A stretch of 64,000 nt of DNA from Lentibacillus halodurans (GTDB taxonomy: Bacteria > Bacillota > Bacilli > Bacillales > Amphibacillaceae), in the NCBI RefSeq assembly GCF_900112045.1, contig NZ_FOJW01000012.1, positions 1 to 64,000 of the forward strand, in the 5' to 3' direction. Position 1 is the stretch's first letter; each line of letters opens with the position of its first letter. Made by a program: the position numbers and the translations under genes. The notes beneath the pieces were generated by a model that saw nothing but the letters and a program-made list of their open reading frames with translations, had not been told where the DNA came from and searched no databases. This document shows, piece after piece, positions 1 to 57,955 of the stretch.

Positions 1-98
1 CAGAATCGGACCTTTACAGGCAGTAGCTTCCGTCAGAACGTGCGATGATACGATAACTTTAAAATACGGGAAGCGTACAGCCTGTTAAGGTGGGAAAA
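1..98 (+). repeat. R1 repeat copy a (cut by window start)
   Basis: The first 24 bases are identical to bases 26641-26664 of copy b. The right side carries CCTGTTAAGG (81-90), which can pair with CCTTTACAGG (11-20), as in the other copies. The 5' hairpin lies outside the window. Confidence 0.75.
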
Positions 99-109
99 AA
101 CAAATGTAA

Positions 110-4370: not shown

Positions 4371-4985
4371 TATGAAACAGGCTGGAACACAGTTAAAACG
4401 TTCCACGCTAAAGACGAACGATGACAGGGCAGGAAGTGCAGCATTTGAATTTTTCAACAGTCACATCCTTATTCACCGTTGATAACGACTGCGAAAGCGT
4501 GACAATTTGTCTTGGTGTAGCCTTCCTCCCATTCTGATGTTAGTTGCGTGCGATCCGGCGGCATACTGCGCTTTCCATGGGCCTCCTCGGAAAGCAAAGA
4601 CCTCTTTCCTGCGGGGTCTTCGGCTCGTGTCCCCGGAAAAGGCGTATTTTTTCCGCAGCGACAATCATGCATTCACCAACAAAAGCATGGAAGCAAGCAA
4701 ATCTTAGACCAAGTTACTTCTCAGTTGATCGATCATTCGCAACAAATGTTCAAAAATACCTCAAAAGATAAAACCGAACTGTTCCCATAATAGTGGAATC
4801 ATCGTTCGGATTTATCTTTGGCTTATATACTTTTGTCCCAGTCTCTTTACAGCTGGCAAACTTCATCCCGAAAACAAAAACTTCAGCGTGAAAAAGAATC
4901 TTCATTCCAAAATCAAAAATTTCATCCCGAAATCAAAAACATCCATACAAAACTTGCCCTCTGGCCAATCTATGACAAAATCACC
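4371..4985. repeat. Gene-free region with R4 and R5 repeats
   Basis: This stretch lies between two convergent genes. 4545-4665 is a GC-rich element (R4) with blocks such as CTGCGGGGTCTTCGGCTCG. A relative lies in inverse orientation at 58058-58140. 4861-4955 holds about five degenerate 19-20 bp units of the type TTCATCCCGAAATCAAAAAC (R5), related to an array at 47811-47885. A weak hairpin GGAAC/GTTCC (4383-4403) may end the PadR operon. The open frames here have no coding character. Confidence 0.6.
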
Positions 4986-26053: not shown

Positions 26054-26590
26054 GTGAGCTTGAAAAACTACAGCCGCGAAGAACTGGAAGTAAAATCAAT
26101 GGTTGAACTGGCAAATGAACGCTTATGGGATGAAAAAAAAGCAATGGATTTCAATGAACTTTATGACCAAATAGCTGAATTCAAAGGATTTACCGAAGAA
26201 CAGAAACAGGAATACATTGCACAATTTTATACAGATCTGACATTAGATGGCAGATTCCTGACAGTCAGTTCCGGCGTGTGGGGATTGAAGCGCTGGTATC
26301 CGGTTGAACAAATGGACGAAATCGTATCAACGGCACCTAAGAAAAAGAAAGCGAAGAAGAAAAAGAAAGAAGAAGTTCCGCGTGAAGAGCCTGAAGAAGG
26401 GAACTTGGATGTTGCGGACGATAATGTCGAGATATTGACAGGTACATTTGATGATGAAGTACTCGGTGAAGATGAACTTGATGAAAACGACGAATTTGAC
26501 GATGAATTCGATGAAGTTGACGATTTTGATGATGATGAAGATGATAATGAAGATGATGATGATAGCAATGAAGATGAAGATAATAGGTAA
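26054..26590 (+). CDS. rpoE: RNA polymerase delta subunit
   Basis: 178 aa. Delta factor promotes RNA polymerase recycling and transcription specificity in Firmicutes. The folded N-terminal HARE-HTH domain (residues about 1-90: SMVELANERLWDEKKAMDFNELYDQIAEF, VSSGVWGLKRWYPVEQMDE) is followed by a lysine-rich patch KKKKAKKKKK and then a highly acidic disordered tail of Asp and Glu, exactly the delta layout. GTG start with AAGGGAG upstream. Its TAA stop overlaps the first bases of R1 repeat copy b. rpoE followed by pyrG is the conserved order. Confidence 0.97.
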   Translation: MSLKNYSREELEVKSMVELANERLWDEKKAMDFNELYDQIAEFKGFTEEQKQEYIAQFYTDLTLDGRFLTVSSGVWGLKRWYPVEQMDEIVSTAPKKKKAKKKKKEEVPREEPEEGNLDVADDNVEILTGTFDDEVLGEDELDENDEFDDEFDEVDDFDDDEDDNEDDDDSNEDEDNR

Positions 26591-26735
26591 AGTGAAACTT
26601 CATTCAGTGGGGTGCTTTTCCCCACTGAATGTTAGTTGAACAGAATCGGACCTTTACAGGCAGTTGATCCCCCCACACTTTTATAAAACATTCTGTAATG
26701 AGAGGAACTTACTGCCAGTTATGTGGTGGATAAAG
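26587..26735 (+). repeat. R1 repeat copy b
   Basis: Starts with TAAAGTGAAACTTC, which includes the rpoE stop. Stem 1 is ATTCAGTGGGG (26602-26612) with CCCCACTGAAT (26620-26630). The conserved joint GTTAGTTGAAC follows, then AGAATCGG and CCTTTACAGGCAGT. The right arm ACTTACTGCC (26707-26716) is followed by GTGGTGGATAAAG, which closes the element just before the pyrG promoter. Confidence 0.8.
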
Positions 26736-33571: not shown

Positions 33572-33826
33572 GTGTTCAAAAAGGATGATAAAAAGGCCCG
33601 GTCGGTTAGGTTCGTCATGTCCTTTGAAAACGCCGGCACTAACACGTCGTGTGTGTTAAAAGTTCGAGGCTGCGCAGCTTTGAGTAGCGAAGTAGTACAC
33701 GAGCAACAGAGAAGCAAGCAGAGCTTCCACAGTATGGGTGGCTTCGACATTGATACAGGACATGTCGGTATTTAGTCGAAGCTTCACTAGACGGCGATTC
33801 ATTTTTGCCGGACTTTTGAACAACCT
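33572..33826 (+). repeat. R2 repeat copy a
   Basis: Begins GTGTTCAAAAAGGATGATAA and ends CCGGACTTTTGAACAAC; GTTCAAAA and TTTTGAAC form terminal inverted repeats. It shares AGCTTTGAGTAGYG and both ends with copy b. It ends 25 bp before the rho start codon. Confidence 0.75.
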
Positions 33827-35196: not shown

Positions 35197-35411
35197 GCGT
35201 GTTCAAAAGATGGATAAAAAGGACCGAGAAGTTCAAGATATCGTAGCTTTGAGTAGTGGAACGTATGTATTAAAATACATGAGCAACGGAACGGGAAGCT
35301 AACGAGCTCCCACAGGATGTGATGACTTCTGCGTTGCCTACAGCACGTGGGTGGTTTTAGCAGAAGGTCCTCTATCGACGTGTCATTTTTACCGGACTTT
35401 TGAACAACCTA
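35197..35411 (+). repeat. R2 repeat copy b
   Basis: Begins GCGTGTTCAAAAGATGGATA and ends ACCGGACTTTTGAACAACCT, with the same terminal inverted repeats and orientation as copy a. Internal dyads include ATGTATT/AATACAT (35264-35281). A weak hairpin ATGATTG/CAATCAT (35147-35167) after rho lies just upstream. Confidence 0.75.
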
Positions 35412-35506
35412 TTTTTATGTGAGTTTAAATAAGGTATTGAGACCTGTGACGGCTCTTGCAATAACTCTGTTTCCAAAGGATTCAGGGCAAAAAGGAGTGG
35501 AAAGAT

Positions 35507-41270: not shown

Positions 41271-41427
41271 GCTTGAGATGTGCCTGTGGATAAGTCAGTT
41301 TCTTATTTCCCCTGATATAACCGTAACGCCTACTGAATGAAGATTTACTTTCGCCCACCTCACCTGAACTGCATATCTCCCCTCAGTCATGCATATAGTT
41401 TAATAGCATGTCCGAGGGGGATTGTGG

Positions 41428-42247: not shown

Positions 42248-42401
42248 TTTCACTTTATCCCGCCTTAACAGGCAGTAAGTTCTCCACATCGGAGAAGAAG
42301 AAATCTGAAAAGAATGTGTGGTCAACTGCCTGTAAAGGCCCGATTCGTTCAACTAATATTCAATGGGAAAAGCGTCCCATTGAATGAAGTTTCACTTTAT
42401 C
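42248..42401 (-). repeat. R1 repeat copy c
   Basis: Reverse orientation. Stem 1: ATTCAATGGGA (42358-42368) with TCCCATTGAAT (42375-42385). Stem 2: CCTTAACAGGCAGT (42263-42276) with ACTGCCTGTAAAGG (42325-42338), one mismatch. The element is bounded by identical TTTCACTTTATC 12-mers at 42248-42259 and 42390-42401. It ends 13 bp before ywlE. Confidence 0.85.
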
Positions 42402-42414
42402 GGAGGACTTCCCA

Positions 42415-43017
42415 ATGAAGATTTTATTTGTTTGTACCGGAAATACGTGCCGTAGCCCAATGGCGGAAGCATTATTAAAGCATAAAATGCCTGAGGCTGA
42501 AGTACAGTCAGCGGGAATTTTTGCTATGAAAAATCAGCGCCCGAATGACCATGTGGTGGAGGCATTACAGCAGCAGGGTGTGACGCTGGACACAATATCA
42601 CAGCCAGTGACAGGTGAATTGCTGCATTGGGCGGATCTGGTACTCACCATGACAACACAGCACAAACAGTCACTTATCATGGAATATCCTGACTTTCAGG
42701 AAAAATATTATACATTAAAAGAATATGTTTCCAACAATGATAAGAAGATATGGAACCAACTGAAACAGCAGTATGCCGACTATGAAGAAAAACGTTCACA
42801 GTTCATTCAACGGTATCAGCATAAAATGGACCATTATAAACTCGAACAGGAACTTAAGGAATATTTGAGGCATGACTGGGAAAAAATCCAAAAACTTGAA
42901 TCTAGTCTGATTAACTACGATATTTCAGATCCATTCGGAGGAGACGTCGATACTTACAAGCAGACCTTGGACGAAATACAAAAACATATTGATGCATTGA
43001 TTTTAAAGATACAGTAA
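42415..43017 (+). CDS. ywlE: Protein-arginine phosphatase YwlE (enlarged)
   Basis: 200 aa against about 150 in B. subtilis. It removes phosphate from arginine residues marked by the McsB kinase for ClpCP. The P-loop CTGNTCRS holds Cys7 and Arg13, with Thr11, the residue that gives arginine specificity; the general acid is Asp172 in DPFGG. About 58 extra residues, rich in Lys, Gln and Glu and probably helical, sit between LKEYV (105) and DPFGG (172). The TAA stop overlaps the start of R1 copy d. RBS GGAGGA. Confidence 0.9.
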   Translation: MKILFVCTGNTCRSPMAEALLKHKMPEAEVQSAGIFAMKNQRPNDHVVEALQQQGVTLDTISQPVTGELLHWADLVLTMTTQHKQSLIMEYPDFQEKYYTLKEYVSNNDKKIWNQLKQQYADYEEKRSQFIQRYQHKMDHYKLEQELKEYLRHDWEKIQKLESSLINYDISDPFGGDVDTYKQTLDEIQKHIDALILKIQ

Positions 43018-43165
43018 AACTTCCATCAGTGGAGAAGTTTCCACACATGGGTATGCCAGAGCAGACATTAGCTATTGACTTCTTGTTCGAGCCTGCATCA
43101 GCCCCCACAGATGGTTAGTTGAACGAATCGGTGTGCCAGCGCCCATTAACTTACGCCAATACACA
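43015..43165 (+). repeat. R1 repeat copy d (diverged)
   Basis: TAAAACTTCCATCAGTGG starts at the ywlE stop. CCATCAGTGG (43023-43032) pairs with CCACAGATGG (43105-43114, one mismatch) across a longer loop. GTTAGTTGAACGAATCGG follows at 43115-43131. Confidence 0.65.
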
Positions 43166-43256
43166 TTTTTTTCATGTACCAGAGGAGCAAGTTTTACGGA
43201 CGGTTACATCGGGGTAAATGGTAATCAATTAATACAATAAGAAGGAGCGACAGGGC

Positions 43257-57273: not shown

Positions 57274-57912
<639 letters not shown>

Positions 57913-57916
57913 TAAG

Positions 57917-57955
57917 AAAAAATCTCTTGTAACAATGTGTTATAAGAGATTTTTT
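57917..57955 (+). terminator. atp operon terminator
   Basis: AAAAAATCTCTT (57917-57928) and AAGAGATTTTTT (57944-57955): perfect 12-bp stem with T run, 182 bp after the atpC stop and downstream of R1 copy e. Confidence 0.92.

Follow-up and report, generated by a model that had tools for sequence, protein, structure and literature searches.

Several genes in one stretch of the Lentibacillus halodurans genome end on a TAA that also begins a copy of a repeat, R1, with two predicted hairpins. What is this repeat, and why does it lie on stop codons? An earlier reading of the DNA (the sequence-only reading) had stated that the repeat gives neighboring genes their stop codons, and had suggested either a structured RNA at mRNA 3′ ends or an element that moves and inserts where genes end. 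We followed R1 from this stretch, called the window here (64,000 nt; positions 1 to 64,000 of contig NZ_FOJW01000012.1), into the genome and its relatives. Our comparisons of sequence and predicted fold indicate that R1 is very probably, at about 85%, a DNA repeat that is mobile but non-autonomous, of the same kind as bcr1.

Copies and distribution of R1

With at most one mismatch, the start string of R1, TAAAGTGAAAC, occurs 11 times in the 64-kb window against 1.59 occurrences expected, and none of 100 shuffles reached 11. The open reading frames ending at 26590 and 57735 encode RNA polymerase delta (rpoE) and ATP synthase epsilon (atpC); the one ending at 43017, called ywlE in the earlier reading and here, gave sub-cutoff matches to low-molecular-weight phosphatases and arsenate reductases. 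These ends bear out the statement that rpoE stops on the TAA of copy b, ywlE on that of copy d and atpC on that of copy e, and the quoted stem changes among copies were found in the window sequence as well. The repeat family is real, though the list of its copies had to be corrected for strand and extent (Table 1): copy c runs along the minus strand and lies in the 5′ UTR of ywlE, copy a is cut, and copy d is decayed. Copy e is flanked by the atpC stop and a terminator-like hairpin.

Table 1. R1 copies, their parts and neighboring features in the window, and L. halodurans arrays with shared 5′ and unlike 3′ parts
Feature	Position	Strand	Remarks
Copy a	1..99 (end approximate)	+	5′ part lost at window start; core AATCGGACCTTTA, hairpin 2 and degenerate right end left
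Copy b	26588..26735	+	Full length; TAAA 26588-26591 includes rpoE stop 26588-26590; right end GGATAAAG at 26728-26735
Copy b, hairpin 1 (inner helix and loop)	26601..26631	+	
Copy b, AATCGG core, hairpin 2 and right end	26644..26735	+	
Remnant of R1 left end and stem-1 arm (AAAGTAAATCTTCATTCAGTAGG)	41329..41352	-	
Copy c	42253..42402	-	Full length; between promoter-like TATGATATAGT and CGGAGG ribosome binding site 5′ of ywlE; antisense to ywlE
Copy d	43014..43218	+	Decayed; loop 1 with extra sequence; TAAA overlaps ywlE stop 43015-43017
Copy e	57732..57916	+	Long subtype (named R1-B); TAAA overlaps atpC stop 57733-57735
Rfam Bacillaceae-1 (RF01690) match in copy e	57773..57839 (67 nt)	+	Between hairpin 1 and GAACAGAATCGG core; 74.9 bits, gathering 35
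Terminator-like hairpin AAATCTCTTGTAAC...GTTATAAGAGATTTTTT	57917..57955	+	3′ of copy e; by eye
5′-shared, 3′-unlike arrays	C23:66063-66366, C25:212158-212457, C29:31578-31849, C12:314035-314361, C23:55189-55488, C17:50908-51200		

Elsewhere the window holds small direct repeats of 27 nt (4858-4943) and an L31-Firmicutes ribosomal protein leader (35465-35497; RF03156, 37.3 bits).

In the 31 contigs (3.67 Mb) of the L. halodurans genome, BLAST with copy b gave 59 matches. A covariance model, for which 22 copies of this genome were used, gave 120, some antisense or overlapping and none of them copy d, and also matched relatives. Eight draft contigs (C6, C7, C9, C17, C19, C23, C26 and C29) start or stop within R1, as if the assembly had been broken by the repeat.

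At E<=0.001 the model matched 99 of 146 genomes of the family (34 of 46 genera), 64 of 199 of the order (42 of 98 genera) and 45 of 398 of the class (27 of 146 genera), in samples that overlap. Searches over more than 40 genomes used stricter filters, and their per-genome match numbers are lower bounds. Even within the genus the spread is patchy: seven of the 12 members are rich in R1 and five poor in it or free of it, with no match at the same threshold in three (G069, G085 and G101). Exact matches to the core came from 49 stretches in Lentibacillus, Virgibacillus, Oceanobacillus and Ornithinibacillus, and on plasmids from Pseudalkalibacillus, Cytobacillus and Peribacillus and in one Klebsiella record. 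The last is the Klebsiella grimontii plasmid pNY3A (CP079755.1, 218561-224631), whose short R1-like element (50.5 bits) is cleanly bounded at both ends; elsewhere this record has 138 nt similar to a Bacillus-type contig, which may reflect transfer or an assembly mixture. Phages were dismissed as the usual carrier: copy b had no match among 50,697 phage records, and exact R1 patterns were found in 3, 5 and 30 IMG/VR stretches.

Architecture and fold

R1 is about 120-165 nt long, with most copies at about 150-165 nt and a short class at 113-139 nt; spans that include up to four flanking bases are mostly 147-167 nt. The unit reads RTAAA|GTGAAAC, hairpin 1, TTAGTTGAAC, (A)GAATCGG or CAATCGG, NNTTTA, hairpin 2 and GTTAANGCGGG|ATAAA, so that its ends are RTAAA|GTGAAAC...GCGGG|ATAAA, and its polarity is fixed. 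We saw no terminal inverted repeats by eye: GTGAAACTTC and the other-strand CCCGC do not match. Taking one copy from each of 67 genomes, the TAAA was intact on the left in 64, a count that the covariance model may raise by favoring copies with intact left ends, and on the right in 45; TTTA stood before hairpin 2 in 58.

These 67 copies, found by the model and aligned by MAFFT without it, were used to examine the fold. Both sides had changed in 23 of 27 pairs. Paired cells amounted to 95.1%, against a mean of 83.1% in shuffled alignments and 27.7-49.5% in slid versions, and the covariation score was 0.305, against 0.095 and at most 0.071; none of 500 shuffles reached any of five fold measures. 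The shuffle control ignores kinship, whereas the slid control does not. Among the 22 L. halodurans copies, two-sided change was seen in 7 of 28 pairs, and RNAalifold recovered hairpin 1 only. The covariation proposed in the sequence-only reading thus holds in a much larger alignment, and together with the start-string shuffles it rules out a chance origin of R1. As judged from the alignments, it fits RNA and single-stranded DNA alike.

Copy e represents a long subtype, R1-B, in which the Rfam family Bacillaceae-1 (RF01690) lies between hairpin 1 and the core. G038, G136 and G108 each have multiple copies with this layout, and G125 has two more; some of these are partial. All five R1-B loci scanned had RF01690 above gathering, while copies a-d had no match even at E<=5. 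Bacillaceae-1 RNA, which is listed in a table of PMC2864571, is thus the middle of R1-B and is missing from ordinary R1; Rfam classes it as an sRNA gene, whereas here it travels within a repeat. Outside R1, the window has three more RF01690 matches, of which two are below gathering. At about 33574-33821 and 35201-35405 it holds a different repeat, about 205-250 nt long, whose inverted ends are GTTCAAAA/TTTTGAAC and which carries Bacillaceae-1-like hairpins (one RF01690 match above and two below gathering).

Filled and empty sites, target and arrays

We compared three R1 sites of L. halodurans with those of its relatives. The rpoE site could be aligned in 10 of the 11 other genus members, and R1 was in none. 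By eye, the rpoE stop is within a single ATAAA in G136, G125 and G101, is TAAA after C or T in G133 and G093, TAA in G085 and G069, and TAG in G038 and G120; G108 has a different insert, not R1. At atpC, R1-type elements were recognized by eye in 5 of the 12 genus members, two of them diverged. The long subtype is found in L. halodurans (G000) and G125, ordinary R1 in G133 and G136, and in G108 a longer, diverged insert that starts like R1. Four members (G101, G069, G120 and G093) have TAA or TAG without R1, G038 has another insert, and in G129 (GATAAATAG) and G085 (GGTAAAAAA) the stop is a bare TAAA, after which comes the terminator-like hairpin. At the position of copy c, upstream of ywlE, R1 is missing from all 11 relatives, and G120 has a remnant-like piece farther upstream.

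Since several relatives that lack R1 have one lone TAAA stop where the element would be, the stop is a property of the target; this target state is visible in part of the relatives only, the stop being TAG or TAAT at some empty sites. The comparison at rpoE, atpC and ywlE thus indicates that insertion is precise, that the stop codon is older than the insertion, and that one site accepts different subtypes. The view that genes receive their stop codons from the repeat is thereby reversed. From these sequences we read the overlap of R1 with stop codons as a consequence of its TAAA target.

The target preference was counted in L. halodurans with crude gene calls (open reading frames of at least 80 codons). 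The best 80 of the 120 model matches were used, the 40 weaker ones (including antisense matches) being omitted; 77 of the 80 came with DNA and 3 without, and 70 remained after setting aside 7 that lacked TAAA[GA] near the left end. Of these, 51 were the first of an array, meaning that the upstream bases are not those of an inner array unit; one array-like copy so omitted, at C11:105823, also starts on a stop codon. The base 5′ of the left TAAA in the 51 was A in 37, G in 12 and T in 2. Only 2 of the 51 lay within a crude open reading frame, compared with 919 of 1447 background RTAAA sites, and 11 of the 49 non-coding ones started on a stop codon, compared with 20 of 528 background sites (binomial p 1.8e-6). 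Stop-codon sites are thus over-represented. This bias toward stop codons and non-coding DNA may reflect target preference or selection against harm. The description of R1 as a mobile element inserting at gene ends survives in its first half, given the filled and empty sites, the many genomic matches, the arrays and the patchy spread; in its second half it holds as an enrichment and fails as a rule, 38 of the 49 copies using no stop and copy c being in a 5′ UTR.

The right end is less uniform. An end-reading survey covered 66 of 68 loci. Among non-array copies with GTAAA on the left and a right end that could be read, that end was ATAA in four (copy b, C25:42889, L145 and L153) and GTAA in three (C12:122245, C25:171393 and C12:99255), with C12:112609 ambiguous; C16:122294 has ATACA on both sides.

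L. halodurans also carries R1 in arrays of 2-4 units, head to tail, with one TAAA common to each junction. Of 23 within-array pairs compared, 11 were 0.96-1.0 identical and 12 were 0.71-0.82 identical. Between different loci, the best identity was 0.961 and the median 0.69 (50 copies of at least 95 bits and no shorter than 110 nt), which gives no hint that R1 moved very recently. Eight of the 16 array junctions had unlike 3′ halves (0.57-0.72, against a median of 0.55 and a 95th percentile of 0.74 for unrelated loci). Six of these eight shared a common 5′ half (0.94-1.0; Table 1) and part company past AATCGG, ahead of hairpin 2. At C12:314035 and C17:51052, two of these six, the new part opens with an apparent reversed Bacillaceae-1 module. 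The other two are C22:58113, whose last unit is truncated, and C25:29550, unlike in both halves. Sixteen junctions in other genomes comprised 9 alike in both halves, 2 of the 5′-shared kind, 4 of its mirror image and 1 intermediate. We infer from these junctions that exchange inside R1 reshuffles its 3′ parts. By eye, two loci (L013 and L008, at C8:153476 and C12:314035) have a Bacillaceae-1-like module in opposite orientation between TTTAC and hairpin 2.

Two readings that place the value of R1 in its neighbor genes can be weighed on this evidence. Selection of R1 for supplying stop codons is scarcely credible: the copies that start on a stop codon speak for it, but relatives free of R1 already possess a stop of their own there, which contradicts it at rpoE and atpC, and most of the 49 copies use no stop at all. 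It is also improbable that R1 is mainly a functional structured RNA, such as a 3′-UTR stabilizer, a processing site or an sRNA, kept for its effect on neighbor genes. Its strong covariation is what such an RNA would have, but hairpins of single-stranded DNA would show covariation as well; one copy is downstream of rpoE and another separates the atpC stop from its terminator-like hairpin, and the atpC site is occupied in five genus members, but the positions at rpoE and before ywlE are not common to relatives, three members of the genus have no match, and among 61 copies the upstream called gene is on the opposite strand in 24 (same strand in 37). For the bcr repeats of two B. cereus strains, passages of PMC3446304 report copies within mRNAs (84 of 165 and 62 of 155) but, there, a correlation with decay for bcr3 only. 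With the rpoE and ywlE insertions not shared, and the atpC insertion shared in part with different subtypes, a conserved gene-specific 3′-UTR role is unlikely, though possible at atpC; as the main explanation it was rejected because of the empty orthologous sites. What stood of the proposed RNA at mRNA 3′ ends is that the fold covaries and that some copies are in 3′ regions.

Relation to bcr1 and possible modes of spread

The repeat that R1 resembles most closely is bcr1, a counterpart missed by the earlier remark that no function had been described for such an element. Work by Okstad in 2004 reportedly found bcr1 present or absent at sites with conserved flanks, as R1 is at rpoE, atpC and ywlE. 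Both bcr1 (group A, bcr1-bcr3) and R1 are multicopy, mostly chromosomal and of similar size, with many copies in UTRs and intergenic DNA, a TTTAT (= ATAAA) end motif and a conserved predicted structure. A table in PMC2267715 gives the size of bcr1 as 147 or 167. According to passages in PMC6542083, mobility of BCR elements is tied to the TTTAT motif and a mechanism like site-specific recombination, and the first BCR element is restricted to the B. cereus group; we read the latter as a statement on known range. The range of R1, in many genera of Bacilli, is much wider than that stated for bcr1, for which reason we call R1 bcr1-like and not bcr1. The two differ also in their ends: PMC3733652 lists Bcr1 with the MITEs whose inverted repeats measure 15-30 bp, and R1 has no such repeats. 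PMC3733652 also describes other bacterial MITEs (RUP, NEMIS and ERIC), which like R1 are small, non-coding, gene-adjacent and folded once transcribed, and unlike R1 are defined by terminal inverted repeats. A DDE MITE was rejected for R1, terminal inverted repeats being absent by eye.

An IMG/VR contig (L359) carries a 161-nt R1 match (76.4 bits) with the same ends and hairpins, starting TTTATAAAGTGAAAC and ending GGGATAAATAAA, and with TTAGCCCTCACCAATCGG in place of R1's TTAGTTGAACCAATCGG. A sister contig (L363) has shorter matches (43.3 and 40.9 bits) adjoining a TIGR03601 heterocycloanthracin-type gene. We tentatively take the L359 element to be a B. cereus-type form of the repeat. From the description of bcr1 we infer that R1 is probably homologous to it, with L359 as indirect support. 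In listings and passages of open-access papers we found such a repeat described nowhere but in the B. cereus group, and the papers listed for R1 core strings were unrelated by title.

How R1 moves is the next question. IS200/IS605-derived MITEs (PATEs) and REP/RAYT elements have hairpins near their ends, no inverted repeats and a short fixed target. R1 is like them in all of this, with a short left target and fixed orientation, although its two hairpins are unlike each other, which sets it apart from REP units. That R1 is itself a PATE-like derivative of IS200/IS605, moved by a Y1 HUH TnpA, is possible but doubtful. Among 40 chosen family genomes, 20 of 22 rich in R1 had a match to Y1_Tnp (PF01797), as did 11 of 18 without an R1 match, many of these matches being partial or broken; the association is weak and uncorrected for kinship. 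PF01797 had no match in two R1-rich genomes, G125 (complete) and G045, and in L. halodurans it found one broken remnant with a stop; a host Y1 enzyme could since have been lost. Inspection by eye showed no sequence before hairpin 1 that could guide to TAAA, and the right ends are divided over an element-borne TAAA, 4 to 3 with one ambiguous. Nor was an autonomous partner with R1 ends recognized in 1.59 Mb of fetched DNA: among 379 distinct left ends, 10 had a right-end-like match 250-5000 nt away, six of which were viewed by end sequence and longest frame. Only tentatively, too, can R1 be thought to spread mainly by site-specific or microhomology recombination, or by template switching, between TAAA and core sequences and without a transposase of its own. 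The eight L. halodurans junctions with unlike 3′ halves, six with a common 5′ half, would follow from it, as would the two 5′-shared and four mirror-image junctions of other genomes; on its own, however, it leaves unexplained the clean single units at unlinked (R)TAAA sites, the fixed polarity and ends, and the presence in tens of genera.

In the reading that we favor, an enzyme acting in trans would recognize the tetranucleotide TAAA and the ends of R1, folded and probably single-stranded, much as IS200/IS605-type transposases recognize their own hairpins and short targets; TTTA, conserved at the base of hairpin 2, might pair with TAAA. A target TAAA that serves as a TAA stop remains a stop after insertion. 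Because the right end is also ATAAA, whether this is part of the element or copied from the target, more copies can join head to tail with one TAAA per junction, and exchange within the element would then reshuffle 3′ parts and expand arrays. Effects on mRNA would be by-products of the landing place. A bolder version, which we hold to be conceivable though on balance unlikely, is that R1 and bcr1 form one old class of folded, enzyme-less repeats across Bacilli, moved by non-Y1 machinery that reads TAAA and exchanging 3′ parts, with Bacillaceae-1 as an exchangeable module and not an RNA gene.

If R1 is such a mobile repeat, what had been described as a repeat of one species group becomes a common mobile repeat of Bacilli. 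The covariance model could be used to annotate R1, and a simple reason is offered for copies that lie on stop codons. A catalogued small RNA family, Bacillaceae-1, may be a component of mobile repeats, which is a point of caution. As R1-rich and R1-free species occur within one genus, the question of the enzyme is tractable.
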